Below, piece by piece: positions 5,216 through 54,068 of a stretch of DNA of 64,000 nt. Position 1 is the first letter of the stretch, and each line of letters starts with the position of its first letter. Made by a program: the position numbers and the translations under genes. Source of the DNA: Albugo candida (lineage: Eukaryota; Oomycota; Peronosporomycetes; Albuginales; Albuginaceae); contig CAJNAR010000160.1 of NCBI GenBank assembly GCA_905220665.1, forward strand, positions 186,001 to 250,000, given 5' to 3'. Below the pieces are notes generated by a model. That model was not told the DNA's origin. It did not search any database and saw only the letters and a list, made by a program, of their open reading frames with translations.

Positions 5216-5981
5216 CACAAATACCTGGAGATGAACTACTCCGCGTGTGTTCCAGCGCACTCGCCATCTTGTCACACTTGCAAAGGCGATTTTGAAGCTT
5301 ACTTCTCTATAGCCTCAGCTTTGATCAGGGAAAACATCTTGTAGCCCGCGGGGCGAAGAATGCTGTAAATGTTGGCTGCGTTGTTGATGTGTAAATTGAT
5401 TTTGTGTATTATGTTTCTCTTTACCTGCCTCAAGATATCGATTTTCCTTAGCAAAAATGTCTGTAATTGTGACGAGTTCAGATGGCCTCAATTGTAGTCC
5501 TGACCTATCAGATCTCAAGATTTTAACCACAACTATCAACAGAATCTATGCACAAGGGAGCGAAAGTATCTTTGAACAGAAAAAAATGCGCCAATTCTGC
5601 TTGAAGAGTAAAAACTGCCAGTAGCAGAATTTACCGATGTCCAAATTGTAGCCATCTTGCTTTGATCGGAAAAGAGACGCTAGATATAGGTGGACAACTG
5701 GTGCACTTTCCGCACACGACGTGTCAATACCTTACATACTACGCAGACACGAGGTCTCTGTCAACGTAAGGAGCATGACTGGTGCACTTTCCGCAGACGT
5801 CGTGTCAATACCTTACATACTACAGAGACACGAGGACTCTGTCAGTGTAAGGATATGTAGGCTTGATATGCAGGTTGCAACCATTTTTTTCGACAGGAAG
5901 AGTAAACAGTTGCTTGGGTTTGCAAAATACTTCTAAGCTATGCCATCTTTTCAAATTTATTTTAGCTCGTCAATTGAGAAG
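5216..5981 (-). mobile_element. Remnant of LINE D (5' terminus and a reverse-transcriptase scrap)
   Basis: Bases 5220-5275 match the start of the reverse-transcriptase region of LINE B at about 13405-13460 (shared block around ACTACTCCGC). At 5981, read on the minus strand, the sequence CTTCTCAATTG repeats the first bases of LINEs A, B and E. It directly abuts the target-site copy at the 3' end of LINE C. The sequence between the two blocks is too diverged to assign, so only the ends are supported. I read it as a heavily deleted fourth member of the tandem LINE array. Confidence 0.4.
5697..5858. repeat. Two-copy 81-bp tandem repeat with internal dyad
   Basis: Copies at 5697-5777 and 5778-5858 are nearly identical and both start ACTGGTGCACTTTCCGCA. 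Each contains a partial palindrome: CCTTAC pairs with GTAAGG around an inner ACACGAGG core with AGAGAC/GTCTCT-type arms. It lies inside the decayed LINE D stretch. No coding use is evident. Confidence 0.75.
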
Positions 5982-5996
5982 TACTCGAAAGGCCCA
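5982..5996. other. tRNA-derived target-site copy at LINE C 3' end
   Basis: The 15 bases TACTCGAAAGGCCCA agree at 11 of 15 positions with 24285-24299, the first 14 bases of the tRNA-Arg gene plus one base upstream. They sit between the 3' end of LINE C and the 5' end of LINE D. Read as tRNA they fit 7+2+4+1 bases: acceptor strand, two-base linker, D-stem strand GCCC, A14. I interpret this as a decayed target-site duplication. Confidence 0.6.
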
Positions 5997-8900
5997 GTTG
6001 AAGTTGATCATATTACTAAAATTAGACGCCACCTCTTTCCCAAATGCCTAAGCTAAGATAAAAACAACAACGCATTCATGCAAGGTTGATGTAGAAAAAT
6101 CCATACCGAAGTTCAGCGAGCAGGAAATAAGTAGTACTGAGTGGACATGCTACTCAGCACCGATTTAAAATCTTAAACGTCGTCGAAGCTGAAATAGATT
6201 GGACCTAGCACAGTAATAGCTCCACGTTCACCCAGTATTTGGTCTTAATATGACAGTAGAGTATCGGATATGGGCACTCAGTGTGCTATAAATCACCAAA
6301 ACAGCACGGGTAGTAGGCACCGAAATGCCTTGATCGAAAAGTCTTCGTTTTCGAACCGTCCAAACAATATGAATCGCAACCGCGACTAACGTTAACCGAA
6401 TATCCTCAATTACCAGTGTAAAGGGTTTCCAAACATCAAGAAGTGCAGGAAGCCGTGCATACGCGATGTGTGACCATCATGTTCGAACAGAAAAGATGCT
6501 TTTACAAAACGGAAAGAGCTCTTCCTCAATTGGCCGTTTCCTGCTGCAGTCGAAAAAACAGTGATGATAACTTTCCACGCCACCTCAATGGTTTCGAGTG
6601 CACAAAATGATTTCTGGAGGTGCTTTTTGGGAAACCAGAATTGACACGAGCTGGTAAAATGCAAAGGTAGGTTGGAATTGAATAAGAAACTGGTAGCAGG
6701 CGTTTTCGGAGACGTTTTTGCCCCATGTTGACTACCCGCTTCGAGCACGTTTGGAGACGTGAAGCATCATTGTTTGTGGTTTATCAGGTGGTAGTGCCTT
6801 CCTAATGACTCGATAAAGTTGATTCTTAGTTATCAATGCCGAATTGAACCAGATACAAATGTGTCATTGCCCTGTCGAGGAAGTATACAGTATAAATATG
6901 TCAACGAGTGGAGCTTGTCGAAGATTTTTGCGTTTGCTTCGACGTGCAGCCGCAATTAAGTTTATTGGGACTTTCTGGATGGCTTCCCAACTTCGCTTGT
7001 ACTAAAGCGCAAAATAGATTGAGAGAAAAGTCGAACCAGTTCGTTCTCCCATCAAAAAGTCACGTAAAGACTGTATTTGAAACTCTAGAGCGAATCGCAT
7101 CGAGACACGTGTTGTCCGCTTTCGCTTCTCAAAGTGCAACTGACGATATAAATATAGGACGTGTTGAGAGTTTACCCTGCTTTGGTCGGGAAGTGCCTAA
7201 TGACTTTGATGAAACCAAACACATGTCTGCTTCTACCATGGTGACGCTACAATGCAATGAAATATAGTCATATGCCGGCGTGGTGATATCGTGAGGGTAT
7301 TGACGATCGATATGGCCCAAAGACCGGCAAGATGCATCTTGTGATTGACATTCCACCAAGTGTCCATTATCTTGTGCTGGAATCAAGTATACATTACTGT
7401 AAGAACTGGAATCGTTGTTTCTTCAGTTTCGTTGGGATATACGGAACCTGGAATCCACCTTCTGAATGATGAAGGTATAAAATGTTTCGAGTTGATCAGT
7501 TGAACGTGTGTCGAATCTCGCTCATACTTCCGAATCAAGAAATAAAATCGTTAAAGTATCGATTGTCAGTGTCGAAATCAATGTTACAAAATGTTCGAAT
7601 GAGTTGTAAAGTGCCATAAACGTGATAAAACCATAGTTTGTGCCAGCTACAATCTTTCACGAGCTATTCTGACATGACGGAATAACTGACGGAATCCATT
7701 ATAAAAATGATCTTCGAAAAAATTAATTATCAAATTACCAAAGGTCAATTGACTAAATGTAATTCCCAATTATTTACACGACTCGTTTAAGGAGAGTATT
7801 TTCAATTTTGCAAAGGGTTGACATACGTGGTGTCGATTCAGTGGAAGAAAATTCGACTTGAACGAGTGGAGCTTTGCACCGGAACCATCGCAATAATCTC
7901 GAACGATCTCGAGCCTAGCCTCCACTTCACTTAGCCAATACGAAAATGATGTCGAATCGTTCTCAAAAGAGCAAATCCGTTGCTGTACCCGATGGTGTGA
8001 TGCTTTTCCTGCTCCTTCGTTCCTCCGCAACAAATTTCCCAAAGATTTAATCCTCTTGAGAAAGAGAAGAAGATTGGATCACCTTGTTTCACTCCCGTCG
8101 ACGAAGGGATATTCAGTGAGAGCGTTCATTTAGCAAAATCGATACATTCTTATATATTTACAGAAGCTTTGTTCACTGCATGAACGAACACAGTACATTT
8201 TCGACAAGATCGTACACATGAACGACCAGTCAACTAGATCGTTTTCTGTCTCAAATCGAGAAATGATGCGTAGGCTTCATCGACAAGAGTGACCAGCTCT
8301 TGAAGATTAATCATGTATCGAATGTGATGATGGATGGAATGTCGTCGCAGAAATGCTTTTTTGATCCTCGTGGATCAATTTCGGAAGCACCTGCTGAAGT
8401 TGGTACGCGAGTAACTTTTACAGCACTTTCAGATCCATGCACAATAACGAGATAGAACGATACTGGCCAGGATCAGCAAGAACTTATTTTTAATGCAGCA
8501 ACTTGGTTGCTGGAATGCGCTGAGAACGCAAAACGAGCCTCGGCGAAGTTCATGGTCGATAAAAATTTGAAGAGGTTCACCAAAACCGCTCCGAGCGAGT
8601 TGACAGAATTCTGCTGGCAATCCGTTTATTCCAGGTGTTGAATGTCCACGCATATGGGTATTTGCTTTCTAGAGGTCTAGTTTTGGTAATGGAGTGGACG
8701 AAAAGGATCCATCCAAGCTGGATAATGTATTTTTGATGGGATGAATTAATGTTTCTTGCTTTGTCGCACACGGATGCACAAGAATTCCAGCTGAATTTAG
8801 TGACCTGTAAAATGAGGAGTGATGTCAATTGGGTTCTTCGACACTTGTCCATAAGGAAGTATAACTTCTTCCAAGGTACGTTATGATATGTTGAGTCCAC

Positions 8901-10935
8901 TGGTCGAAAAAGTGGCGAGATGATCGCTCCATATTCTTCATCTGATTGTCGAACATAGAGTCTTTATTAGATTTGGACGAGTACCTCACTCTTATCATGA
9001 ACGAGTGAAGACCTGCCCCATATGGCTGTTTTTCTTGATTTTGATCTGATTGTCGAAAAGCTGCTGCAGCTTCGTCTAAGTCAGCTCCAGCTTTTGCGGC
9101 GTTCAATTCTACTTAGAGATGAAAATTTATTTTGAACTTGCTGTAATAATTTCTTCATTTGCTTCTTTCAATTCTCCCATGGATGAGATGAAACACGAAG
9201 TTTTTTTCAAGATACTTTCCGCCTTTTCCTTAATCGCTTCTTTGATTACTGTACAATCGAATAATGATGAAGGACGTTGCCAATTATCACGACATTGGAG
9301 TTGAGATAAATTCTGGAACCTAATAGTACGAGCAGGATAATCACCGTATGATGCAGTGAAGCGTAAATGAAATCCTTGTAAATTGAGTGGAAAGAGGTAC
9401 CGACAAAAGTATGTAGTCCAGACTGTTTCTCTTGGTTGGAGTCCTGTAAAGACACGTCCCTCGGATGATGTTCATGCCAAGCTTTCGAACACCCAAAATG
9501 GAAAGTCATTCCAAACATGAGGGTCGCCTAATCTCGTGTAGACAGACACCACTGGAACAATCCGAACTGGACATAATGATGCAATCAGATCTCCATAGAT
9601 GATGTGCATTGCTTTGATTTAGAAGATCCAGTTGAGAAGTTGATCGAAAAATGTTTCGCTCCGTTGATCGTACCGGAACATAGACGCTGTGGACCTAAAA
9701 AGACGCTCGATGATCACTTAGCGTACAATCAGATATCGGAGAGATTGCTTAGAGTTGTTGAAATTTTGGATTCGGGAAAGACGCTACGAAAAATGTCATA
9801 ACACCATCAACTCTTTCTCGAACGGGGTGAGAGTGAAGAACATTTGAATCACGGACAAAAGATGAATGCTGAATAACAAATTCAAGTGAATTCGAATAGT
9901 CTTCAGGTGTTGACTGTAGCGGAAATGAGTTTCTTGCGCACAACAAATGAGGTATTTCGATAGTATGTGCTATATAAACAGGTGAACATTTGTTTTGATT
10001 TCGTTCGTGTTGACGGAAGGAATGTTCTTATTGTTCCATGAGGGCTGGTCGGACGAGCTTCCCTTCACAATCGGAAGATTGTGCTCCTGTAATAATAGTT
10101 GGTAATCTGTCTACCTGCTGCAGCTGTTGGATAGCTGCATCTTTGGGGAAATATTTCGTCGATAATTGGAGAACTTTCCAAGTCGTCCAATCACTGACTA
10201 TCCCATTGCGCGTTAAATCAATAAATTGGATAAATCGAGACAAGTGGAGAACGCAGAAGCTGTAACAACACGTTTGTGTGAGACAGACGGTGCTGGTGTG
10301 TTGGGATCCAGTTCAACGACTGAATAATGATGTACTCGATCCACTGATCACTGTGGTAGATCCCCGGTATTGTGCAATTAAAATCAGCTCGAAAAATACG
10401 AGTGATTGTGTCGCTCGACTGCATAACTCAGCTGCCCATGAAACTTTCCACCAGTGTACCGCAGACTCAATTTAGTCCTGTCGCTTTACAAATTCTTTTC
10501 AACGATTATTTTATACCACTTCTAGACGAATGTGGTGTCCGAAGCGTGTCTGAGCCCTAAAGAACACGATTAATAGTGTGAAATAGCACCAATTTTATAA
10601 TCGCTGTACGGCATTCGTCGGTTGAGCACTCCTTGAAGTGCTATCGTATGGTACAAGGTACATTGAACTAAGCCATCGCCATAATAGCTGAAGCTAACAT
10701 GCTTGTCAGCCTTCGGTACGTGAACATCTTCTTCTACGAGTTTGTTGACTTTGATTAGGTCTATTGCCGTTTTAACATCGTCAATAAGAGTAAACACTGC
10801 TTCATTTACACGCGCTGAAATATCACCTTTCTCGATGAGCGTGTGGTTTTTCTTGAAATAAATGGGCTGTTTTTTTGGATCCAGCAACATGTTTGCTAGC
10901 CACGACGTTAGAAGGAAAAATGTATTAGCGTCTAC
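5997..10935 (-). mobile_element. LINE C, 5'-truncated and heavily decayed
   Basis: Degraded copy of the LINE A subfamily, read on the minus strand from about 10935 to 5997. It retains the C-terminus of ORF1 (within 10570-10968), endonuclease fragments near 9246-9518, reverse-transcriptase scraps at 8429-9106 and 7770-8042, and the C-terminal ORF2 region at 6410-6748, which matches LINE A at about 17860-18070. The 3' tail at 5997-6070 keeps the LINE terminal block found in A and E. Many frameshifts and deletions make every domain non-functional. The 5' end is missing: at about 10935 it is fused to the ORF2 C-terminus of LINE B. It is the most diverged, so probably the oldest, copy. Confidence 0.8.
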
Positions 10936-13900
10936 GAAGGATCCTTGCGTCGCGAGCTGATATAACACTTAATCAAGCCAAATGCGTTCATCTTGGTCGT
11001 AACACTGTCTTCGATTTTACCGAGCGCGCGCACTAAATGTGGTGTAGATAACCGAAAGTGCTGGAATTGTTGAAGTTCTCGATCTCTGATCGAACATATG
11101 ACGATTGCTATCGGTCCAAGCGAAGTGCAGCGTCACCTCTTCCAATGCAAGCCATGAATCTGATATGATTTGTTGATAGTCCTTCCATATCGGCTGTAGT
11201 GTTGTAACAATTGTAAATGCAATATGTGGCCAACCTGTTAGAGAGGACAAAAAATGATCCCAACTAGGTACTAACTCCCTCCATAATTGTGCCGTGTGAT
11301 GGCACTCTAGAAAGAGAAAGTGATCGTATTCCACTGTCCCACACGAAGGCTGCGCTCATAATATAATGTTGAGCCGAATATCCAGCAAAAACCAAAAACG
11401 AGATCGTACTGGCAACATCCGAAAGGCCAGACGAAACTGTAAATATTCAAAAGCGGGTAATACTCGTCTCCGAAAGTTCCAACTCGTTCCGAATCCAGTG
11501 CTTCTGATCTCTCCCTTGATGACCAATGTGTAAACATCGAATGACTCTTGGTTGGTTCGGGAGGTTTCCAGACGATTTGTGAGAGTTTCGAGAGAGGCAT
11601 AGAAGAAAATAATGTTTCCTCTCCTTTCTTTGTACTCCCACATATTAGGATCTTCCACTTGTGTCTCGTTGGATCCAACTGATGAGACCAATCGTCGAGT
11701 GGATACGCTGGAGAATCTGAGTGACTTCATTGTAAAGTCGACTCAGCAACTTTTCTTCAGACATATCCGACGTGTTCAGCTCTTCGTCGTTGTAATACAT
11801 GTCGACAAAATCTTCCTTCGTTGGCCATGTGTCGCTTTCACGAAAAAAGTCTTGCAAACTTCGAACGTCGAAAAGTGTAGCAAACGTTTTTCGAAATGTT
11901 CGATGTGGTTCATCCACCATACCAAGATTGTACCAAACGTTCTGCGCACTCGGATGACGAGTAGCAGCTTTGTAATGTAACTTTTGGTCGCAGTGAAACC
12001 ACATCGGTTGTTCCATGTATAACTGACGGCGTTGTAGATCATTCAAATCGGATATTGTAATGCTCCAATCCATCTGATGCCACATTTTCTTTACGTGCTT
12101 CCACCAAGAAGAGGTGCTCTCCCATTGAACCATTTTCCCGTGTAGATGTGGAGGGATAGTGAATATATTCATCGGCCTGTGTGGTCCAAAGGAAGTTTGG
12201 ATAAATTGTTATAATTCCGTCGAAGAAGTTGTCCACTTCCCAAGATCATTGCCGACGTATCGGATGCAAACATGCTGAAGGAATTAAATAATTTGTCCAA
12301 GCAAAAATCGATTTAACATCGATTGCTAATGCCGAATAGTCTCAGCTGGTATGTCGTCCACGTGCATCGTACGATCCCACTAACGTGATAAAATCATCGT
12401 CTGAGCAACCAGTAGTCGACCATCACAGTTCCTGCTCGTCGAAACCATACACCAAACCAATCGTAAAAACGCTTGTTGAGAGTTGAAATAATCATCGAAT
12501 GAGTCGGTGTCTGGCCGAACGGGATATCCAGATACTTGACCGAATCCTCCGGACCCATTAAGGTCAAATTGGAAATACGTGGATACGGCATGGTCTGATT
12601 CAACGAGAGCAAAGATGATTCACTCAAGTTGAGTTTCGCACCAGATCCATCGCAATAGAATTGGACGAGTTCGAGTTGCGTCAAAACACCATTTGGTGTC
12701 TCTGAAAGCAATGTCGAATTGTCCGCAAAAAATAATCCAGTTGCGACAGTCGTGCTATTAATCCAAATGCCATGTTCTTCATGTTGTCGAAGTAAATTTC
12801 CCAAAGGTTCGATCGTCATCAGAAAAAGTAATGCTGAGAGAGGATCACCTTGTTTCACTCCACGTTGTGGTGTAATAGATGGTGTGATATTTCCATTAAT
12901 CATCAACTGCGCCTTTGTGTTATTGTACAAAAGACGAACCCAGTCGATGAAACTTTTTCCAACGCCCATTTTTTCCAAAACGCGAAACATGTACGTCCAA
13001 TTGACTCGATCATAAGCTTTCTCAAAGTCGAGAGAAGTCGCATAAGCTTCCTCCCCACGATGAGTGACCAAGTCTTGAATGTCGGTGAGATGTCGAATAT
13101 GATGATACATTGACCTTCCTCGCACGAATGCTTTTTGATCTTGATGGATCAATTTTGGCAAAAAACGTTGCAATCGATACGCCAACACTTTTGGAAGTAC
13201 TTTTACATCGACGCAAAGCAGTGCGATCGGTCGATAGTTGCCAGGATCACCTCGTGATCGTTTTTTGTATAAAAGTGTGATTGCTGAGTGACGTTGTGAT
13301 CGAAGTAGAATTCCTCTTTCCAGCTGATATTCGAACACGATCTTCAGACGCTCGCCAAACGTTTCCGGATCAAGCTGATAAAATGCAGCTGGTAGTCCAT
13401 CCATACCTGGAGAAGAACTACTCCGCATGTGCTTGATCGCTTCCGCCATCTCGGTCGTAATTAACCGAGTCGAGAGACGTTCTTGCTCTGCTGAGGCAAG
13501 TGAAACTTGAATCGAATCGAGTAACTTTTTTTGCTTTCCTTCACTTGGAACATGTGAGTCGGTCTCAGAGCTATAAACAGAGCCCATGACGCCACCCCAA
13601 TGATCTCTGAATTCGTCAATAATCTCCCTCGGGTTCGATGTCACGGTACCACATTTTTTTGTAACATTTTCGATCGGCACGCGACGACAAGAACTATCCG
13701 GAGGGCGAAAAAAATGCTTTGAAGAGTTCTCCATATGCTTCACGTGATGGTCGAAGCTTTCATCTTGGTTGTATTTCGCGTTGTTTTCGACTGAAATTTT
13801 AAATTGTTGGAGACTCGATTCGTAAAAATACCGTGACTCATTGTTGTCTTGGATACGATAGCGAGCTGCTGCGACTTCCAAAACACGCTGGGTAGACTCA

Positions 13901-14897
13901 ACATCACGTTGGCTATCTTGTGCAAGCTTTTTTTCAATGCTTTGAAGCTGTTTCTTGATTTTCGTCTTCCAACTTTCCCACATTTTACCGGGATTCGAAG
14001 TTGTTCGTTACTGTTCGAGCACCAAATTCGCTTCCAATTTGATTCCTTCGACAACTTGAGAATATTCAAATAGTCGTCATTACATGTCCAATATCCTCGA
14101 CCCGGAGATTGAGTTGGATTTGCAAAAGTTACTTTTTGTACCAGATGATCTCCCGCATGTTGTGGATGAAAATACTCAGAGGATTTGTATACCATATTGA
14201 ATAACTCTTCCGATATGCAAATATATTCTAGCCGATTCTTGCGCGGAAATGGTCCTTAAATACTTTTTCAGTTGGATGTTGAATTCTCCAAGCGTCTACC
14301 ACACCCAGCTGTGGAAGCCTTGCCAAACCCGCTAATCTGATCGGCTCGTGTCGAATTGATCCACTCGAAGCATCGATTGCTAGATCGAGTGGTGCGTTGA
14401 AATCACCAAATACGATATGTGTTGCGGTCGATTTGAACTTATTGGGGATAAATAACTCATAAAAAACTACTCGCTCCTCGGACTTGACCGGGGCATATAC
14501 ATTGTAAATATAAACCGTTGCATCGTGAATGAGAAGACGCAAAACCAAATGACGAATACGATTTCTTCGTTCGGTGAGTTCTTCAGCTATTGTATATCCG
14601 GGAAAGCCCGAACGAAGAATTGTCATGGCGCCGCCACTGCGGTTTTGAGTCGGATGGAGAAAAGCACTGTTGTGGTCATTGAAAAACATTTTGTGGTGCC
14701 TTTTTGAATGTAATAAAAACTGAAAGGAGTCCAGTTGGTTGTCATCGCGAAACTTGGTTTCCTGAACACAAAAAATGAAGTGCTGTGATAGGATATGGTC
14801 AATAAAAAGATGACCATTTTTATGAATTCCATTGACACTCACCGTGAGTGCTAAGATATTGTTTCACGTTGAAATAATCGAGGATCCCTTAGCATTC
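10936..14897 (-). pseudogene. LINE B ORF2 (endonuclease-reverse transcriptase), broken
   Basis: Fragments in order on the minus strand: AP-type endonuclease (within 14228-14842, with FGDFNAPLD), an intact 529-codon reverse-transcriptase stretch at 12394-13983, then C-terminal pieces at 11645-12236, 11356-11730 and 11017-11334. RT landmarks seen are YRPIALLCVD, LDFEKAYDRVNW, GVKQGDPLSALLF and the catalytic block FFADNSTLLS. The second Asp of the usual F-x-D-D box is Asn here, so this RT is probably inactive even where open. The C-terminal region keeps part of the zinc-finger-like segment shared with LINE E. At least four frameshifts are present. Confidence 0.85.
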
Positions 14898-14900
14898 ACG

Positions 14901-17339
14901 CTAAAAGTGGACCAGCAATCAACCTCATTGCAACATCTTCTTTTGAGAAGTGGAGTGTTGCTTTCTCTTCAGGGAAAAAGCTAAGATTGACTGAAAGCTC
15001 AGCGATGTCATCAGGGAGAAGTCCGCGCCATTTACCTCCAAGCCATGAGAACAACACTTAATTCACACGTCGTAGCGTAAAAAAGTATGATCACATTAGT
15101 TGGAAGTAAACGGCAATGATGACCCGGAATCCAAATCACTGGCCCATCGGTAAGGTATTGGATCCAGTGAGCATTTGTGTAGAATGTCGGGGAAGTACAC
15201 ATAAAGAAGAGTTCCAAAAAAGCGAGTGCTTTGGCTGCTCGAGTCAGCCCGAAAACTATGCCCGGAACTGACATCCACCACGACATGACTTTCTCGAACA
15301 AGATAGATCACTTGGACGGAACTTTCCCACCAACGTGGTGACTCCATCGCGTCGCAAACGTAACATCTTCGCCGAGATTGTGTGCTGCAAAAACGCGATT
15401 AATCATCATTAAATGCGCCAATCATCCAAAGCTTTATTGTTCGACTCCATACACGCGAGTAGCACACCATTCATACTGTTCGGATGACCAAGTGCCGCTC
15501 GGATGATCTTGTCCGGGTTTCTACAAAATTTTACAAGCTTGCGCACATCAGGTATACACGCATCAGCTTAGACGAGCTTGTCCGGTCGGAGCGGGTTGAG
15601 GGCGTTTTTGGAATCGTTTTTCATGAGCTCTTCTATTTCGCCAATTCCGGTTGCTCGCTCCGCTTTTTCCATCGTTGTATGACGCTTCTTATAGAAGTGT
15701 GCCGCCTCTTTCGAAGTAGCCACCTCTTTTGGCATCCGTGCTTAATGGAGATGAATTGGATGGGATTGCCATTCTCCGGATTGGCAATTGCGTTTATTTT
15801 TCGATCTCCATCTCTATAGTTGCGAGCACAGAATAGTAGTTTCTGGTCGCTAACGGCCGGGAGCGCAAGAGGTGGTGCTTTGGAGACCATTTGTTCGAAC
15901 GGCTCCACCCGATTAAGTTTCCACTAGTCCATGCCAACTACATAGATACATCCCCATCCCCCTCCACCCGTGGTTGGGAGTACGATTGTTTTGCCAGTTG
16001 AAGGATTGGATGAGAGGGCTGTAATAAAGCTGGTGCCCCTGGTGGTGTGATAGTTGGGGGAGTATTGAGCTCCAACGAAATTTTATCAGAGAGCTTCAGT
16101 TCAGATTTCCTCGTCTTCAATTCTTGAGTGGAAATTGGCTTCACTACCGTTTCTGGTACCACCACGAGTGCCTTTGGCTCGGTGGTTTTTTTTCGTTGCT
16201 GTCCATTTTTTTGCTGGTTTTGGTGCTGAGTTGGAGGCTCCGTTTTGCTTTAGTGTTTGGTATTGTTTCTTTTTGTTTGTTGCCGTGCTCCCGTGGCTGG
16301 TGCAGCACCCAAATCCAAGCAATAAGGACTACGTTGACCAAAACGTGGTCGTTCCGATGGAATGGGAGCATTTTCCCCTTACTGGGTAAAGTTGTTTGTC
16401 GTAAGCGATTTGTTCAACCACTTTACCAACTCTAACCAGTTGTTGGGGGCACGTCAAACAACCAAAGTAAACTCGCCAAGTCGACATCACCACTTCCTTA
16501 GTGGGAATCGTCTCGCGAAAGGTGTCATACAACACTTGACATCTGAGATGGTGATGAGCGCGGGTATGTTGTTCCGCTCCTCCTCCACGCCTACGCCGAA
16601 AACATCGAGGTAATATTTTGTTTCAAGAGTATCAATACCCCGAAAAAAATAATTGTTTCCAGGATAGTCACTGGCTGACATCCAATTGTTGGGAACCATC
16701 CGCCGTGGTGACCATCACCCTGATGTTGCCCCCAAGCATTTTGGATACCTGACCGATTGACCGGCTCTCCAGTAGGCTTTCAAAGACCGGATTGCCGTGG
16801 TCTCGCATCAGGGATGTAAGAATTTTCTTATTTGGAGTACGTGTCAAGGACTGGCCCGTCTCCAAGACCGTTGGGAAGGTTCCTTTCCGGATTTGGAAAG
16901 GTCTTTCTGCTTCCAATTTCGCAGACAATACGGACCAATCCGGCTGCTCACCATCAGCATATAGCTGCATTGTAGCCTCGATATCCGAGGCTTTGGCCTT
17001 AGGGAGTTCCACGCGAAGTTTCGCTCGAGCTCGACCTGGTCCTTACGTAAGGACTCCTGTGACTTGATAATGTCCGCCAAAGTGGGACTTTTAGTGTCGT
17101 CCACAACTTGCAGCTGCCTTTTGGTCACCCTGTGACAAGGCAGTGACAGTACCGCACGTACCGCCGGTACCACATCCGACACCGACACTGGTAGTACCTG
17201 TATTACCCTATACCCGTCACACTGGGGGTGAGGGTACTTTACACGTCATCACACAGGGGTGATGACTCATGAGGGCTGCCACGTCACTACAAGTGGACGC
17301 TAGCACCCTGAGTTGTGTTGATATGTCGACTTGGACCAT
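14901..17339 (-). pseudogene. LINE B ORF1, broken
   Basis: Starts at the ATG at 17339, in the same context as LINE E (ends of both leaders read CTCTCGAAAACAATGGT). Fragments at 16844-17188, 16668-17012, 16487-16699, 15938-16165, 15633-15908 and 15032-15301 match successive parts of the LINE E ORF1 protein, so the frame is split by many indels. The product is the presumed RNA-binding ORF1 protein of the LINE. I see no classical CCHC knuckle or RRM. The end is placed from the aligned LINE E stop. Confidence 0.75.
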
Positions 17340-17432
17340 TGTTTTCGAGAGGAAAGAGTTGAAAAAAAAGTAGTTTTTCGAGTTGTGTTGTACTAAATTG
17401 GCGGGCTACGTAGTAGCCGGCAAATCGAGAAG

Positions 17433-17448
17433 TGGGTCGTATAGCTCA
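17433..17448. other. Truncated tRNA 5' end between LINE A and LINE B
   Basis: TGGGTCGTATAGCTCA reads as the first 14 nucleotides of a tRNA gene (acceptor strand, TA at 8-9, GCTC D-stem, A14) plus two upstream bases. It is followed directly by the 3' end of LINE A. No rest of a tRNA is present. It is interpreted as a target-site copy of a LINE insertion at a tRNA gene different from the Arg one at 24286. Confidence 0.65.
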
Positions 17449-17608
17449 GTTGAGGTTGTCTATCTCACTAGAATTAGACGTAAATGACTTCTCTAAATGC
17501 CTAGACGTCAATAAATGACATATAATACATGCAGATGTGGCTTGAAAGGTCCCAGAAATTGAAGCTGGCGCGATTGAAGACGTTTAAGTAGAATCACTCA
17601 ACTCAGAC

Positions 17609-20600
17609 TTATAAGCGCTGACGCCTTCGTATCAGAAGATCTGATCTCCCGGATAGATATCTTTTTGCTGAACCTGATTGCAATAGGCCGAGCAAAACCA
17701 TCTGAAGCTGATCAAAGTGTGCAGAATCATAGCACTGATGTTGATAAAACCGAATATGGGCACTGAATGTGCTGTAGATCACCGAAACAGATGGTCCTGT
17801 TGGTGTTGAAGATACTTGGTCGAAACGTCTTCTATTCCGATCCGTCGAGATGAATTGGATCAAAATGGCAACCAATTCAAACCAAAGATCTTCCAACACC
17901 ATCCTGAATGGCTTCCACCTGTCCCGGAGGAGAGGACGTCGTAGACACGCAATGTGAGTCCACTTAGGTCGACTTGAAAAGAACGCTGTCCAAGAAGTAA
18001 ATAGCTCCTCCCAAATCGGGTGTGTCCTACTACAGTCGAAAAACAGATGCTGATAACTTTCCACCTCACCACAATGCTTCTGTGTGCACAGGATGATTTT
18101 AGGATGAGCTTGCTTCAGAAACCAGAACTGGATCGCACTGGTAAAATTGAATATGTAAGTCGGAGCTGAATGTCCGAGTATATTGGTAATAAGCGCCCCG
18201 AAGACGTTTAAAACCCGTTGAGAAATCCTTCAACCAAGTCGAAGCACTTGGCCGGTCTCTCTCTGGTATGTGCAGGAGCAGCGGGTGAGGCTTATCCGGT
18301 GGTTCTGCTTTCCCAACAACTCGAAAGAGTTGATTCCTAAGAATAGTCGGAAAGAAAACCTTCGTATTCGAAATTTGAACGCAAACTGAACCGGATACGC
18401 CTTTGCAATGGAACGCTCTGGACACAACATAACGCCCTCAGGTTGAATTCGACGTAGAATTTGAGTAGCTTCCACGTACAAGCGTCGTAAAAGCTTTCTC
18501 TTGGCTACTTCCGCTGAATTTCCAACTGTATGCGTACTGAAACGCAAGACAAACTCGGAAGACGAATTGAACCAAGTTGATCTTCCACCGAACAAATCAC
18601 GTAGAGAACGGATGCGGAACGCTTGAGCGAACTGCATCCTAAAATTACGCGCAGGTTCCGGGACCATTCCCATACATCGACGATGAGCAACCGCACTGGT
18701 AGAACGTTGCCGTTGCTCAAAGTGAAGATGAGAATCCACCTGCAGCCAGACAGGAGCATTTAACATAACGATGTATTGCTCCTGTGAAGACAAGGTCTGG
18801 GGTGTGAGTTCCCACTTACTCTGACTCCACCAAACGCACGTCTGCATCCACCACGATACCGCTACATTCCAACGAACCATGGTAGCATGCCGACGCGGCG
18901 ATATCGTTAAGATATCAAGCGGCTTGAACGGTCCAAAGTTGGGTAAGATGCTCTTCACAATTTCCATACCAGGCAATGTCCATTTGCTTGGAACAGGTCT
19001 ACTGCAATGTAGTGCAAATTGTTGTAGAAATTGGAGTCGTTGCTTCATTATTTGCTTCTCGATCATCGGAACCTGTAGACCACCTTGTGAATAAGGAAGA
19101 TATAAAAGTTCCGATCGAATGAGCTGCACGTGTGTTGAATCCCGCTCATACTTTCGACTCAACACAAATCGATTTTACATCGATTGCCAACGTCGCAGTA
19201 AATGTTGCGGGATATTAAAATTTGTCGTAAAATGCCATAATCGTGACAAAACCATGGTCTGCGCCACCAAGAAACGTCCACGCACCGTTCTTGCTCGGCG
19301 AAACCACTGACGAAAACCACCATAGAAACGATCTTCTAGGAATTCAATCATCAAATCACTCACTGGTGATTGACTGAAAAGAACTCCCAAATACTTGACC
19401 GAATCGCCCAGTGATAGAACTTTCACAAAAGCGAACGGCTGACAGACTTGATGACGGTTAAGAGGAAGTAAAGTTGACTTTGAAAGATTCAACTTTGCTC
19501 CTGAACCATCACAATAGTGTTGAACGACATCAAGCTGAGCCTCCACCCCGCCGAGCGAAGACGATAACAAAGTCGAGTCGTTCGCAAAGAATAAACTTGT
19601 TGATGTATCCATTGGTGTGATACAAAATACCAGGTCCTTCATTTCTCCGCAACAAATTTCCCAACGGCTCAATAGTCATGAGAAAGAGCAATGCGGAGAG
19701 TGGATCACCTAGTTTGACTCCACGAGAAGGAGTGATCTTTGGTGAAAGCGTTCCATTCAACAACAGCGAAACATTCGTGTTGGTGTATAGAAGCTTTGTC
19801 CACTTGATAAACGAATTTCCGCAGTTCATTTTCGAAAGCACAGCAAACATGTACGACCAATCCACTCGATCGTACGCTTCCTCAAAATCGAGAAAGGTCG
19901 CATATGCTTCCTCACCACGATGAGTGATCAAATCCTGTAGATCACTCATGTATCGAATGTGGTGGTGGATGGATCTGCCTCTCAGAAATGCTTTTTGGTC
20001 TTCGTGAATCAATTTTGGAAGAATTTTCTGGAGTCGACTGGCAAGTACCTTAGAAAGCACTTTCACAATCACGCAGATTAATGCAATAGGCCGATAGTTT
20101 TTCAGGATCTGCTCGAGATCCTTTTTTATAAAGCAACGTGGTTGCCGAACTACGCTGAGAGCGCAGCAAAGAGCCGCGACGAAGTTGATCGTCAAAGACA
20201 ATTTGCAAACATTCACCAAACACACTCGGAGCGAGTTGGTAGAATGCTGCCGGCAATCCATCCATTCCAGGTGATGAGTGTCCACGCATGCTTTTGATGG
20301 CTCCTTCCATTTCCGATTTAGTTAATGGAGCAGAAAGAAACGACTCATCAGAGCTGTTTAATGTTTTGATAATTGATTCGAGAAGCGTTTTTTGTTTTTG
20401 AATGCAGGGACGGAGTGGGACTCCAGCTGAACTTGCCTTATCACCCATAATTCCACCCCAATGATCGGTGAACTGAAGGTTGATTTCAAGTGGATTCTTT
20501 GATACTTTGCCATTCGGAAGGAGTACTTCTTCCAATGGCACCCGATGAAAAATTTAATCCAGCGGACGAAAGAAGTATCTCGATGATTTCTCCACATTTT

Positions 20601-21779
20601 GCATCTGGTGGTCGAACGCGGAGTCTTGATCGTACTTTGACGAGCTCTTCACTCGTTCATGATAAGAATGAAGAGCGTCCTTGTAAATCTTCTTTTCTTT
20701 TCTCTGATCTGACATTCGATAGGCGGATGCAGCATGTTCCAACTCCGATTGATCTCGAACGAGCTCATCTTCCTCTTGATGTCGAATCATCTTTTGAATT
20801 TGCTGAAGTAAACGCTTCATATACTTCTTCCAACGCTCCCAATCTTTTCCGGGACTGGAAGAAGCACGAAGCTTTTCCAAGATGCGTTCCGCGTCCACTT
20901 CGATTGCCTCGATGATTACTGGGTTCTCGAATAATGAGAGAGGACATTTCCAGTAACCACGGCCCTGAAGTTGGCTCGGATTTGCAAACTTGAGTACATG
21001 TGCCAAATGATCCCCCGTGTGAGGAAGGGTGCCATAATTTGAATCCTTATAAATTTTACGGAATAGATGTTCCGACAAAAAGATGTAATCCAGTCGATTA
21101 CGTCGTGGCTGAGGGCCGGTAAAGATACGCTCTTCGGGATGCTGGTGACGCCAAGCATCGAGAACACCTAAGTTTGAAAGCCATTCCAAACACGGGAGTC
21201 GACTTGGTTCATGGCGATATGCACCACTAGAACAATCCAGACTTGGACAGAGAGTTGTGTTGAGATCTCCACAGACGATATGTGATGCGTTTGCTTCGAA
21301 TGATCCAATTGGAAGCTGATCGAAAAAAGGTTTTCGTTCCGTTGAATCCACCGGAGCATAAACGTTGTGGACGTACACTGGTGCTCCATGAACCACCAAC
21401 GAACCACCAGATAACGATCTTGAACTGTGACGTTGTGCACGGCTTCAGCAGTTTCAAATCCAGGAAAATCGTTCCGAATAATGGTAATAACACCGTTTAC
21501 TCGTTCCCGAGAGGGGTGAGAGTCAAGACTATTCGTATCACTGATAAAGGATTTACTTTTGGATGTCGATGTCAGGTGAAAACAAAATGTCTCCAGGTGC
21601 TGGCGATCACGAAAACGAGTATCTTGGACGCAACAGAGTGCATATTTTGAAATTGTATGCTGGATGGCAAGGTGACCATTCTTTTTGATTCCGTTTGTGT
21701 TGACGGAAAGAATGGTCTTATTTGTCCACGAAAAAGTGGCCGTTGAGCTGCCCTTAGTATTGAACTGAAAGGGATCCAA
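17609..21779 (-). pseudogene. LINE A ORF2 (endonuclease-reverse transcriptase), broken
   Basis: The endonuclease begins with ILSVNTNGIKKNGHL (frame 21168-21779) and continues in 20554-21399, with CGDLNTTLCPSLD, RRNRLDYIFLSE and HTGDHLAHVL, the usual catalytic region of an APE-type domain. RT motifs occur in 19530-20285 (YRPIALICV, LDFEEAYDRVDW, GVKLGDPLSALLF). The catalytic box in 19175-19672 reads FFANDSTLLS, so the first Asp of F-x-D-D is Asn. C-terminal fragments follow at 18230-19165 and 17609-18064. At least six frame changes are present. The ORF begins in overlap with the end of ORF1, without an ATG at the start of the open frame. Confidence 0.85.
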
Positions 21780-24187
21780 CGACGAGTTTGTGAATACCGT
21801 CTTCCTCCTTCAGTTGTAGTACAGAAGCTTCGTCGGTAAGAAAACGGTTGGATGACTGAAGCTGCACCAAGTCGTCGAAAATGGGACTTTTCCACTTTGC
21901 GTCAAACCACTCGCTGAGGCAAAGTGTACCCAACGGTGAACGCAAAATTTGCAACAACACATTCGTGTGAAGCAGACGACAGTGATGAGCGGGAATCCAT
22001 ACCACTGGCTGACCAATAACGTACTGGATCCAGTGGTTGCTGTGGTATATAGTTGGTGCCGTGCACATCAACATCAGCTCAAAGAACGCGAGCGAGTTTG
22101 TTGATCGTGTCAATTCCTCCACTTCAGCTGACTCAGTCCACCAGTTGTCCACCGCTGCGAGCATAACTTTCCGAACAGCCGAAACGGAACCACCGACTTT
22201 CTTCGACCATTTTTTGCTAAACGTGGTATCCGAATTCGGTTCGGATGCTGCCAGTACACTATTTATTGTGTGTATTCGCACCACTTGATCCAAGCATGGT
22301 TCGTTGGACCTCATGCAACGATTGAGCACTCCATGTAGTGCAATCAGATGATCTAATGCAAATTGGAGAATACTGTCTCCGTTGGATGTGAAACCAGCAT
22401 GTTTACTTGCTTTCGCAACGTAAACATCCTCTTTCAACAAAGTATCCGGTCGAGGAGGAGACTGAGCTGTTTTCAAATCTTGAATTAATAAATCCACTAC
22501 TTGTGCCTCACGAGTCGGACGATCGTCCTTTTCAATTCGAGTGTGGTTTTTTTTTGATGAAGTGAGCCGCTTCTTTAGAATTGGCCAAATCGTTTTTCAC
22601 CACAAGTTTGGATGGTACAACCTGGTACCTTTTCCCAAAGTCGTCCTTCGTACTTACGTCGATTTTTACAAAGTCGACGTCGACGGAGCCGAGCACATTG
22701 AAATAATTGCTCGTAGCCAAACCTTCCAATGATTTGGGAGGGGCATTGCTCAGTAAACTTTGAAATCGATCGATAGATCGATTACGCTTGTTGCGATTTC
22801 GAACTGGAGTCCACATGTCTCTGGCGGATGTCGACTCGTCTTGTTCGGTAATATTTGCTCCATTTTCTTTGACAGCCTGAACATCAGAGGGAATGTTCTC
22901 CTGAGTTGGAACAGAGTTTTTTAATACTGGAATTGTCTCATCGTCAGCGGTGGTAACAGGGGTGTCTTGAAGATTAGATTGTTTGTTTTTAAGACATTGT
23001 TTAGACACCTCCGGTAATTTGCTGGTGTTTTTTTCCTGCTTTGGTGTCGTTTTCGACTTCATGGGCTGGCTTTTGACCGATGAAGCGGTTTGTTTCGTCG
23101 GTTTTTGATTCGGTTGAGGAGTTTTCACCGGCAGCAGTAAGCAGTGTGGACTGCGCTGACCCATCCTCAACCGATCAACCGGGAGGGGAGAAGCTTTCCC
23201 TCGAGCCAAATAGTATCTCCCCTCGATACATATTTGCTCACAAACTTTTCCGCCAACCATTAGCTGTTCAGGACAGCTTGTGTCGCGGAAATAAACTCTC
23301 CAAGTCGACATAGCAAGTCGTCTGGAAGCCACTGCTTCACGAAAATTCTCATACAGAACATCGCACCCAAGACGATGCAAAGCCGACGCAATGTTGAGTG
23401 TGGACATTTCCGGTCCGATTCCGAAAATATCCAAGAAAAATCTCGAACCAAGAATATCGAATTCACGGAATGAGTATTTGTTCCCAAGAATCGTAACAGT
23501 TTCGTGGGCCAATTTATGGCAAACTTCCTCTTCGGTAACGAGGAGTCTCAAATTACCACCTGGCAATTTAGCCAATTGGCCAATTTTCCCTGCTTCGAAA
23601 AGCTCGTCGACAATCACATTACCGTGATCTCGAACGAAGGATTGCAAAATATGCGCTGGTGGGATTCGAACCAGCGCCTGACCAGTTTCCAGCACTACCG
23701 AGAATTTTGCACTGGGTAGAGCGAAGGGTTTTGCTGCAGTCAAGTGTGCAGACAAAATCTCCCAACTTGGGCGGCCATTTTCGAAAAGCTTTTCAATAGC
23801 GCGAAGATCCGCAGCTAATGGCTTAGGCATTTCAACCTTCCATGTTGCTTTTTTAGCCGCTTTATCCTTGCGGATTTCCTCGTTGCCCTTCAGGATATCC
23901 GCCAAGGTAGCGCGGTTTTCTTGTTTAACCGGTTTTTTTACCGATACAGGAGGTAATGACGCGGTCGCGTCATCGATGTCCATAGGGATCGATGGAATCT
24001 CCTTGGGTAGAATACGAGCTGGCTCGACAGTCATGGTCACATCTGATTGGACCGTTTCAGATTCCGTGGATTCTGAGTGGCAGGTGGCCGCATCCAAAGA
24101 AACATTTTCCGTTGGAACTGGTGCACGAGTTGTGACATCGTCGGACGACGTAACGATGGGTAAACGCAAAATGTCGATAGAAACCAT
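21754..24187 (-). pseudogene. LINE A ORF1, one frameshift
   Basis: The ATG at 24187 is the equivalent of the LINE E ORF1 start; the open frame extends further upstream through antisense tRNA and should not be used. About 550 codons are open to 22532. After one frameshift the C-terminal 248 codons continue at 21754-22497 and end just inside ORF2. The protein has a Thr/Ser-rich N-terminus, a Lys-rich middle (22960-23110) and a conserved C-terminal block with PVVWIPAHHCRLLHTNV, shared with LINE E. It is presumably the RNA-binding partner of ORF2. Confidence 0.8.
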
Positions 24188-24284
24188 TCTGTTGGAGAGA
24201 ATAGTAGTCAATAAGGGTGGTGTGGTTGAAAGTTGGTTGTTGTGTATCCGGTTTGCGACGTTTGTAACAGCTGGCAAATTGAGA

Positions 24285-24299
24285 AGTGCTCGCGTGGCC
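24285..24299. other. LINE target site: tRNA-Arg position -1 to A14
   Basis: The LINE A 5' end lies at 24284, so these 15 bases are the tRNA-side copy of a target-site duplication. The matching copy is not at the 3' end of LINE A; the best match (11 of 15) is at the 3' end of LINE C, 5982-5996. Confidence 0.55.
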
Positions 24300-24358
24300 C
24301 AATGGATACGGCGCCGCCCTCCTAAGGCGGAGATTGCGGGTTCAAGTCCCGCCGTGAG
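24286..24358 (+). tRNA. tRNA-Arg (anticodon CCT)
   Basis: A complete cloverleaf folds by eye. Acceptor GCTCGCG pairs with CGTGAGT (two G-U pairs), discriminator A; the short D-arm starts GCCCA. The anticodon stem CCGCC/GGCGG encloses loop CTCCTAA, giving anticodon CCT. The T-arm GCGGG/CCCGC has loop TTCAAGT. It is 73 nt without an intron. The gene is intact although LINE A starts one base upstream of it. A LINE insertion that duplicated the first 14 bases would explain why it survived. Confidence 0.93.
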
Positions 24359-24391
24359 TAGATAAATATAGCGTGTCAATTATATAAACAT

Positions 24392-47003: not shown

Positions 47004-47017
47004 TGATCCGTTGAAGA
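47004..47017. repeat. LINE E target-site duplication, left copy
   Basis: TGATCCGTTGAAGA here is identical to 54055-54068. The length (14) and final A match the tRNA-type sites of the other LINEs. Its complement could be split 7+2+4+1 in the same way, but no tRNA cloverleaf is present. Confidence 0.85.
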
Positions 47018-47107
47018 CTTCTCAATTTGCCGGCTACTAAGTAACCCGCCAATTTAGTAAAACAACTCGAAAAAACAGCCTTTTTCAACTCCTTCCTCTC
47101 GAAAACA

Positions 47108-49575: not shown

Positions 49576-49576
49576 C

Positions 49577-53998: not shown

Positions 53999-54054
53999 CC
54001 TAGGCAACTAGAGAAGTCAGTTAGTCTAATTCTAGTAATATAGACACCTTCAAC

Positions 54055-54068
54055 TGATCCGTTGAAGA
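54055..54068. repeat. LINE E target-site duplication, right copy
   Basis: TGATCCGTTGAAGA, exact match to 47004-47017, directly after the LINE 3' end. Confidence 0.85.

Follow-up and report, generated by a model that had tools for sequence, protein, structure and literature searches.

Can a LINE use one nucleotide position inside tRNA genes as its target, and does the tRNA gene survive the insertion? The question is raised by the 64,000-nucleotide stretch of Albugo candida DNA analysed here (the window), in which three LINE junctions had been read in an earlier note as the start of a tRNA, each LINE ending directly after tRNA nucleotide A14.

LINE copies and junctions in the window

All three junctions are present, with coordinates off by 1-3 bases. 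At 24285-24299 the LINE 5'-end motif CAAATTGAGAAGT stops at 24287, and G1 of tRNA-Arg(CCT) is the next base, 24288. This intact gene (24288..24360, + strand; Rfam RF00005 63 bits; ARAGORN 24287-24361) has its A14 at 24301 and the target point at 24301/24302. The adjoining LINE (17449..24287, - strand; 5' end 24287, 3' end 17449) has both junctions and broken open frames; Pfam finds RVT_1 at 19530-20285 and, just under the cut-off, Exo_endo_phos at 20554-21399. We assign it to family 2, which in this copy is about 67% identical to family 1 at the nucleotide level over the alignable stretches only.

At 17433-17448 the motif stops at 17433 and is followed by GGGTCGTATAGCTCA (17434-17448, + strand), which is tRNA-Ile -1 to 14, and then by the LINE 3' end GTTGAGGTTGTC. 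The letters of this fragment, which is flanked by two LINEs, equal the start of an intact tRNA-Ile gene at C42 (L104). The LINE on its left (10937..17433, - strand) is a decayed family 1 copy with its 3' end missing (blastn 84-86% to 47017-54055; RVT_1 at 12394-13983). An older family 2 copy lies at 5997..10417 (- strand; 3' end 5997; blastn about 67% to 17449-24287), its right edge being an alignment edge.

The third junction (5982-5996) stands in part. The motif ends at 5982 with 2 mismatches and is followed by ACTCGAAAGGCCCA (5983..5996, + strand) and GTTGAAG; the spacer is counted only as tRNA-like because 10 of its 14 positions are identical to tRNA-Arg. The degraded motif (5970..5982, + strand) belongs to another copy further left. 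It is supported by its position and not by the match alone, since two-mismatch matches are common in the window (14 found against 10.6 expected by chance).

The earlier picture of LINEs at tRNA starts covers these copies and leaves out a fourth, a full-length member of family 1 at a non-tRNA site (47017..54054, + strand). It has both termini and a clean target duplication of 13 bp, TGATCCGTTGAAG, at 47004..47016 and 54055..54067 (both + strand). The expected duplication of tRNA -1 to 14, by comparison, has no matching copy at the LINE 17449..24287, because its two neighbours differ, one being tRNA-Ile and the other tRNA-Arg. Duplication of a tRNA start is demonstrated at other loci of the genome, not in the window.

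Classification of the elements

The full-length copy encodes an ORF1 of 769 aa (47108..49417, + strand) without a match in Pfam and two parts of an ORF2. The first is an APE-type endonuclease nearest to the L1 endonuclease (49774..50718, + strand; PF03372 E 9e-4, under the curated cut-off; PDB L1 endonuclease 2e-6), and the second a reverse transcriptase (51137..53998, + strand; PF00078 4e-35). When a restriction-like endonuclease behind the reverse transcriptase, as in NeSL/LIN elements, was looked for, Pfam matched the 953-aa frame to RVT_1 alone (E up to 1), and a Pfam search of the element frames gave no match to an RNase H domain. In a comparison with solved structures only, the reverse transcriptase reaches 126 bits against human L1 ORF2p and 83 bits against R2. 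The AP-like endonuclease upstream of the reverse transcriptase is the arrangement of the APE-type L1 group; LTRs are absent, and the target duplications vary in length (13 bp in the window, 12-16 bp at twelve other copies). The window holds two diverged L1-like LINE families, with which a SINE is partnered.

The elements end in CACCTTCAAC and not in the poly(A) of TRE-type elements, and at tRNA genes they insert after A14, inside the gene, and not at a distance from it. Nor is their site specificity as strict as that of R1 or R2, as the junctions outside tRNA genes counted below indicate.

Genome-wide survey of LINE 5' junctions

The 5'-end motif occurs 231 times in the genome (117+114), compared with 7 times (2+5) for the reversed control. 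Junctions were counted at 100 of the 231 motif places, among the matches listed, and 95 of them were judged: L041, L049, L075 and L082, without LINE sequence upstream, and L122, at a contig end, were left out. L050 was retained by eye despite a low upstream score, and L093 was reassigned by eye from open site to spacer. Among the matches listed, an intact tRNA adjoins the LINE 5' end at 10 of the 95 judged junctions, and at 39 the start of a tRNA, as far as A14, is followed by another LINE or SINE; 6 lie at a tRNA-like repeat and 40 at non-tRNA sites. Nucleotide 14/15 as a fixed target, as the earlier note had it, hence describes 49 of these 95 junctions and fails at 40.

Where tRNA genes are hit, insertion directly after A14, inside box A, is precise to the nucleotide and recurs at many tRNA species. 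The copies read represent nine amino acids (Phe, Lys, Ala, Thr, Asn, Ile, Tyr, Met, Arg). A tRNA 5' end fits 39 of the 45 inter-element spacers with 0-1 mismatch, while the remaining 6 have 4-7 mismatches; the control for this matching drew on 23 of the 37 open non-tRNA sites. A length of 14-16 bp, from about tRNA -1/1 to 14, is the usual one (40 of the 45), which bears out the claimed extent of the duplication for these spacers. Short ones among the 39 tRNA spacers are L093 (11 bp) and L106 (8 bp).

We rejected the reading of the upstream motif as a conserved tRNA promoter element: 40 motif copies lie at non-tRNA sites, duplications accompany most of these 40 with two flanks read, and free tRNA genes that were read lack the motif. 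We also rejected the idea that the LINE starts with a ribozyme, the sole Rfam match at its 5' end being sub-threshold and unrelated.

Insertion at non-tRNA sites

TCA is present in the expected stretch at 28 of the 37 open non-tRNA sites, against a background of 19% in sequence drawn at random from the window (p 2e-13). This figure is plain presence in a fixed stretch, since the alignment score favours TCA; L050 and the non-tRNA spacers L052 and L071 are outside the 37. Most non-tRNA sites carry TCA at the same offset as the tRNA sites. Duplications of 12-16 bp were found in 12 of the 17 copies at non-tRNA or tRNA-like-repeat sites with both flanks read, and in the other 5 of these 17, whose right flank is non-tRNA or tRNA-like repeat, the flanks differ on the two sides. 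TCA and duplications at non-tRNA sites therefore argue for a short cut motif, about GCTCA^G. The tRNA genes are one target of the LINEs and not the sole one.

The sites with CGTACCCAGCTCAGTCGG (L053, L098 and four similar spacers) were rejected as tRNA genes, Rfam finding no tRNA in L053 and L098 at E 0.1, and are tallied separately as tRNA-like repeat.

A match between the LINE 3' end CAAC and the GTTG of the D-loop had also been pointed out. It does not hold as a requirement: LINEs at non-tRNA sites end in CAAC without a GTTG continuing the target, and an obligatory pairing of the two was rejected as unnecessary at the non-tRNA sites read.

Duplications, arrays and mixed flanks

An identical tRNA fragment stands on both sides of the tRNA-proximal element at 10 of the 14 tRNA genes with both sides read. 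The flanks differ at the tRNA-Arg copy of the window and at 3 of the 13 others; the C167 tRNA copy (L195; 3' end not found) and elements running off contig ends or not followed are outside the 14. At C150 one tRNA-Met fragment recurs at four junctions, and the SINE is present as three truncated copies, 147 bp apart, each with the same tRNA-Lys fragment. The duplication restores the gene, so that tRNA genes are spared and not destroyed, and this rebuilding accounts for the head-to-tail arrays. As read from the DNA, the junction position, the duplications, serial insertion, a sequence preference and the strong enrichment of tRNA genes among identical 10-mers are established.

For the mixed tRNA flanks (window, C64, C71, C72, C74) we tentatively consider, in place of recombination, that a dimer transcript was reverse-transcribed or that the cDNA became joined to another tRNA gene. 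The orders Tyr-Tyr-Ile-Tyr-Tyr at C64 and Arg-like-Ile-Arg in the window are as expected of an inserted dimer. However, crossing-over between two copies fits C71 (Ile-Ile-Phe-Phe) equally well, as it does C30/C23 with a non-tRNA target site on one side and a tRNA on the other, and an error in array assembly is possible, so that we regard the dimer or joining route as rather improbable.

Occupancy of tRNA genes and sequence preference

A LINE or SINE lies directly upstream of 16 of the 17 tRNA genes carrying the 16-mer GCTCAGTNGGNAGAGC (LINE 5' end 13, SINE 2, 5'-truncated LINE 1); the sole unoccupied one is the Asn gene C162:690176. The set was reduced from 18 to 17 because C1:24561 was dropped, a B-box string search of L198 being negative. 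At nuclear sites of the 10-mer GCTCAGTTGG, LINE 5' ends occur at 11 of 16 tRNA sites and at 0 of 71 others (Fisher 1.6e-10), and a short fixed sequence alone is insufficient for targeting. Of these 71 sites 20 were read, none being a tRNA by Rfam, and 51 are outside the tRNA genes known here. The zero is valid for LINE 5' ends only, because a SINE lies directly upstream of one of the 20 sites read (C2, L209, a tRNA-like repeat); occupancy by SINEs or truncated LINEs covers these 20 of the 71.

Among the tRNA genes read, 0 of 8 with G at position 12 are occupied, compared with 18 of 23 of the others (Fisher 1.6e-4). The genes C145 Trp, C142 Ile(TAT), C158 Cys and C180:127815 Thr contain GCTCA without the full 16-mer and are yet free. 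GGCCCAATGG and GGCCTAATGG, which differ from GCTCAGTTGG, are carried by occupied tRNA-Arg genes. For the tRNA list 63 of 1851 candidates were scored, so that the genes are at least those listed (the tRNA-Arg of the window is missing from it), and counts may include haplotype duplicates. For the Fisher test C159 and C5, organellar by eye, were omitted from the 33 places outside C134/C196. Some contigs resemble organelle DNA and have the order of their tRNA genes inverted.

Proposed mechanism and alternatives

In the explanation that we favour, at a probability of roughly 0.8, L1-like LINEs and a SINE insert by target-primed reverse transcription at GCTCA^G and rebuild the tRNA gene, the site being chosen by local sequence and a tRNA-specific layer, most likely Pol III. 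The endonuclease would nick the sense strand of the tRNA gene in box A after A14, and the 3' OH at the nick would be the primer from which reverse transcription starts at the 3' end of the element RNA (...CUUCAAC). The second strand would be cut close to tRNA nucleotide 1, about 14-17 bp further upstream, so that the duplication would re-form the whole tRNA gene behind the element 5' end. Because it is rebuilt, the gene would survive and be open to repeated insertion, which would yield head-to-tail arrays whose elements are separated by copies of one tRNA fragment. The first layer of site choice would be the local sequence, without G at tRNA position 12, and the second a tRNA-gene-specific factor, for which the initiation complex of RNA polymerase III is the most likely candidate. 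We infer the order of the strand cuts, the priming, the mobilisation of the SINE by the LINE and the tethering to Pol III. Counted against the explanation are the 40 of 95 judged junctions, among the matches listed, outside tRNA or tRNA-like sequence, the copies whose two flanks differ, the SINE next to the non-tRNA site at C2, and the five free tRNA genes named above, four with GCTCA and one with the 16-mer.

An extension of it has about an even chance of being right. The Pol III complex would bring the LINE to tRNA genes and the box A motif would license the nick, and the target would never be exhausted because the duplication rebuilds the gene. LINE and SINE ends would then be the 5' flank of 16 of 17 susceptible tRNAs, the host transcribing from behind them, and arrays may break the assembly.

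The LINE protein might instead recognise an extended box A (about TRGCTCAGTNGGTAGAGC) purely as DNA, without a Pol III factor, in the manner of R1 and R2. The common bases around the nick at occupied sites, the absence of occupied G12 genes (0/8) and the TCA of the non-tRNA sites agree with this, and recognition of the whole box A would give counts similar to those of Pol III tethering. However, from the 71 non-tRNA GCTCAGTTGG sites without a LINE 5' end it follows that recognition must extend far beyond the 10-mer and yet accept the Arg genes with GGCCCAATGG and GGCCTAATGG, which makes pure DNA recognition unlikely, though a serious alternative.

More doubtful is a self-reinforcing process in which the tail of a read-through RNA (...CAAC-UGAGCUA...) might pair with box A of further tRNA genes once it is nicked, and might steer or stabilise priming. 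Array copies do have a tRNA fragment directly after the 3' end, and the non-tRNA insertion at C14 has two extra bases, CA, ahead of GTTG, like a remnant of such a tail; however, the other duplicated sites compared keep at most a single G before TTGAAG and no remnant of a donor tail. That a short-motif LINE inserts anywhere and that tRNA insertions are merely kept, since the duplication spares the gene, agrees with the dispersal of the 40 non-tRNA junctions (of 95, among the matches listed) and with the intact tRNA after insertion, but is very improbable with one tRNA class occupied at 16 of 17 genes and LINE 5' ends at none of the 71 GCTCAGTTGG sites, where insertion would presumably often be harmless.

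If the Pol III explanation is true, one LINE unites sequence-specific cutting and the Pol III neighbourhood in its site choice, and its target renews itself, the insertion mending its own cut. The 16/17 occupancy of one tRNA class would be a natural test of the need for upstream sequence. Two diverged LINE families that have the same ends, together with the SINE that accompanies them, would let experiments tell apart the roles of cut motif, RNA 3' end and tRNA context, and precise, non-disruptive insertion into tRNA genes would be of interest as a safe-harbour mode.

Relation to known elements

L1-type LINEs that target tRNA genes are known from dictyostelids as TRE5, TRE3 and NLTR-B (PMC5911963, PMC5006619, in the parts consulted). 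The LINEs described here share with them the L1 type, APE and reverse transcriptase and the location at tRNA genes, and with TRE5 the position upstream of the tRNA in opposite orientation. In contrast, TRE5, TRE3 and NLTR-B insert 40-54 bp upstream, 40-150 bp downstream and 39-64 bp upstream, respectively, and not at one nucleotide position in box A, and TREs end in oligo(A), whereas poly(A) is absent from the present LINEs. In Dictyostelium purpureum, NLTR-A is reported to lie 2-6 bp before the first tRNA nucleotide (PMC5006619), which resembles the 5' junction described here, but has an RNase H domain, for which our LINE gave no Pfam match. The parts of PMC5006619 consulted mention neither a duplicated tRNA start nor an intragenic cut for NLTR-A, which may or may not share the present mode.

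The earlier note had proposed a distinct, precise targeting mode. The precision after A14 stands; the tRNA target is not new by itself, because NeSL-1_TV (tRNA-Pro), LIN15_SM (tRNA-Arg) and LIN25_SM (tRNA-Glu) are reported as tRNA-gene-specific LINEs in the part of PMC4640811 consulted. These belong to lineages that the paper groups with restriction-like-endonuclease elements, one tRNA species being named for each, whereas the LINEs described here are of APE type and use tRNAs of nine amino-acid types. In the open-licence PMC text consulted, the Albugo literature including the Albugo laibachii genome paper (PMC3130010) has nothing on these LINEs, and relative to the RLE-type tRNA LINEs in such papers a tRNA-sparing LINE of APE type looks new.

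According to the parts of PMC3706591 consulted, the non-LTR element Dewa occupies the zebrafish tRNA-Leu spacer; it is a tRNA-linked site-specific LINE like ours, but in the spacer and not inside the gene. Dada DNA transposons use a fixed intragenic tRNA point, and some copies are flanked by different tRNA genes. They have a DDE transposase and 6-7 bp duplications and are not retrotransposons, but the fixed tRNA point and mixed flanks are common to both. Tandem insertions of the Dada U1 families are named in the title of a supplementary figure of the same paper.

Elements and tRNA gene in the window

The genome under study comprises 38.9 Mb in 196 contigs, and the window covers positions 186001-250000 of contig C158. 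Its only tRNA gene, found by ARAGORN as well as Rfam, is a tRNA-Arg(CCT) at 24288-24360. To the left of this gene LINEs of two families lie head to tail on the minus strand: a family 2 element (17449-24287), a family 1 element (10937-17433) and an older family 2 element (5997 to about 10.4 kb), with a remnant of a further LINE 5' end (5970-5982) leftmost in the row. A full-length family 1 LINE occupies 47017-54054 on the plus strand, at a non-tRNA site with a clean 13 bp duplication. The DNA identity between the families is about 67%, counted over the aligning stretches only, yet both begin with ACTTCTCAATTTG... and end with ...TCAAC. Compared with solved structures, the reverse transcriptase scores highest against human L1 ORF2p (126 bits, as against 83 bits for R2) and the endonuclease is closest to the L1 endonuclease, which makes the window LINEs APE-type, L1-like elements.

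The three places where the earlier note saw LINE ends meet the start of a tRNA are all real, with slightly different coordinates. The spacer at 17434-17448 matches the start of a tRNA-Ile letter for letter (reference: the intact gene in locus L104), and the spacer at 5983-5996 is Arg-like only, in 10 of 14 bases. The target duplication of the tRNA start, which had been proposed as well, is not visible in the window, because the LINE at 17449-24287 has unlike tRNA starts on its sides, Ile on one and Arg on the other.

Two minor features were seen here. An approximately 80 bp unit (GGTGCACTTTCCGCA...), read by eye, is present in two similar tandem copies at about 5697-5855, beside the LINE remnant, and a frame at 42673-43638 carries the retroviral polymerase SH3-like domain PF25597 and is probably a remnant of copia type.

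LINE junctions across the genome

The 5' motif CAAWTYGAGAAGT has 231 matches in the genome versus 7 for the reversed control. We examined 100 places among these 231 matches and read all 100; without four chance matches and one contig end, 95 junctions were left. The LINE 5' end is directly followed by an intact tRNA at 10 of them, and by a short spacer and then the 3' end of another LINE or of a SINE at 45. The length of the spacer up to A14, the D-loop nucleotide within box A, is 14, 15 or 16 in 40 of the 45, and 39 spacers equal the start of an intact tRNA up to A14 with 0-1 mismatch. The copies judged lie at the tRNA point in these 10 and 39 cases, and depart from it at 40 of the 95 junctions, where non-tRNA sequence follows (37 open sites, locus L050 and two spacers).

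The other six spacers show 4-7 differences from tRNA starts; four of them, together with two open sites, resemble one tRNA-like repeat. This repeat (CCGTACCCAGCTCAG...), which has box A- and box B-like sequence, was read at loci L053, L098 and L209 and in the spacers of L055, L056, L067 and L117. It is a target of the LINE and also of the SINE, and Rfam calls no tRNA in it. At locus L081 a tRNA-His gene lies one base after a LINE-occupied tRNA-Ala.

Occupied and free tRNA genes

The search with RF00005 yielded at least 65 places, 33 of them beyond the organelle-like contigs C134 and C196, in which tRNA genes stand in inverted-repeat order. The 5' side of all 33 was read; 18 of them are directly preceded by a LINE (16 cases, including one 5'-truncated copy) or a SINE (2 cases). 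For the comparison by base at position 12, two places that look organellar were set aside. Among the 31 genes left, 18 of the 23 without G12 are occupied versus none of the 8 with G12 (GCGCA, GTGTA; Fisher 1.6e-4); the GCGCA pattern accounts for four genes, all free of elements. The class GCTCAGTNGGNAGAGC is matched exactly at 18 places, its reversed control at 1. The match on C1 shows no B box and was dropped as a tRNA gene, which leaves 17: 13 with a LINE 5' end, two with a SINE (C29:161495 and C32:10443), one with a 5'-truncated LINE (on C3) and a sole free gene, C162:690176.

The short motif GCTCAGTTGG occurs 91 times in the genome (reversed control 117) and is therefore not in excess. Sixteen occurrences are in nuclear tRNA genes, four in the organelle-like contigs and 71 elsewhere. 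A LINE 5' end precedes 11 of these sites, all of them tRNA sites (11/16 vs 0/71, Fisher 1.6e-10), and none of the four in the organelle-like contigs. In 20 of the 71 non-tRNA sites, which were read, Rfam found no tRNA at E 0.1; one of the 20, L209, is the tRNA-like repeat with a SINE directly upstream. With SINEs and the truncated LINE included, occupancy is 14/16 for the tRNA sites and 1/20 for the others read. Since LINE 5' ends at this motif are found at tRNA sites only, a tRNA or tRNA-like context counts beyond the GCTCAGTTGG 10-mer. Genes for tRNA-Arg with a different box A (GGCCCAATGG, GGCCTAATGG) are targeted as well. The simplest reading is that the Pol III complex aids the targeting of tRNA genes; it is also possible that the preference comes from a longer DNA recognition, with no need of that complex.

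Non-tRNA sites and the cut motif

The 3' flanks were read for 20 further LINE copies, for 17 of which the matching 5' flank was read as well. In 11 of the 17 both flanks have 12-16 bases in common (at most one mismatch; one copy with two extra bases), and one of these duplications sits at the tRNA-like repeat. Six copies have unlike flanks: the right flank is an intact tRNA-Thr on C23, a tRNA-Phe spacer on C74 and non-tRNA sequence on C18, C20, C28 and C32. Of two more copies, the flanks match on C2 (16 bases) and do not on C33; when these are added and C23 and C74 left out, 12 of 17 copies show a duplication. It follows from the bases common to both flanks that the element ends in CAAC and that the nick falls after ...TCA. 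TCA is present within the expected stretch at 28 of the 37 open non-tRNA sites, compared with 19% when positions in the window are picked at random (p 2e-13). Because non-tRNA insertions show both the duplications and the TCA, the cut motif is short, about GCTCA^G, and is used outside tRNA genes too. The match between CAAC and the GTTG of the D-loop had been put forward as part of the targeting; judged from these insertions, a downstream GTTG is unnecessary. On C14 (loci L069 and L145) the duplicated target is separated from GTTGAAG by an extra CA, which may be a copied remnant of an RNA tail.

Serial insertion at tRNA genes

The element nearest to the tRNA could be read on both sides at 14 intact tRNA genes. 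The same tRNA fragment is found on both sides in 10 (C149, C157, C184, C168, C180:143k, C160, C162:708.9k, C156, C150 and C32), each with another LINE 5' end on the far side, degraded in two (C162, C156); the sides are unlike in four (C30, C23, C74 and the window). Four junctions on C150 have the same tRNA-Met start, and the tRNA-Ala start is seen at four junctions on C67. Such repeated fragments of the same tRNA are the pattern expected of a target that is rebuilt through its own duplication. The observation of LINE junctions at tRNA starts is real, and the first interpretation needs two corrections: the target is not confined to tRNA genes, the cut motif being short and found elsewhere, and the tRNA gene survives the insertion.

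Arrays with mixed fragments are present on C64, C71, C72, C74 and in the window. Exchange between copies, insertion of dimers and assembly error are all possible explanations. On C10, C17, C26, C29, C42, C180, C72 and the small contigs C64-C77, many units of tRNA and LINE are located at contig ends or on short contigs built of LINE arrays, for which reason the arrays probably break the assembly.

Relation to known systems

In the open-licence literature we found no account of an APE-type LINE that cuts inside box A in many different tRNA species while sparing the gene. The dictyostelid elements TRE5, TRE3 and NLTR-B are described as inserting some distance away from the tRNA gene (PMC5911963). 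NLTR-A is reported upstream of tRNA nucleotide 1 at a spacing of 2-6 bp, a position resembling the 5' junction of the Albugo candida LINEs; a duplicated tRNA start, which the latter show, goes unmentioned in the available part of that account (PMC5006619). LINEs of RLE-type lineages with specificity for tRNA-Pro, tRNA-Arg and tRNA-Glu are already published (PMC4640811), and Dada DNA transposons insert inside tRNA genes, some with unlike tRNAs on either side (PMC3706591).

The partner SINE

The SINE is about 315 bp long and ends in ...ACACCCTTAAC at the same target point as the LINEs; its 3' end has 70 matches in the genome with at most 3 mismatches. It starts with a tRNA-like head, in which box A- and box B-like sequence was read by eye; Rfam reported nothing at the gathering threshold for four SINE loci. 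The last bases and the target are common to the SINE and the LINEs, by which it is presumably moved. One copy lies at 1705-2022 of locus L003 (C64). In locus L007 (C136), at about 1704-2315, copies of the 3' part stand 147 bp apart, as three truncated SINE copies with the tRNA-Lys start.
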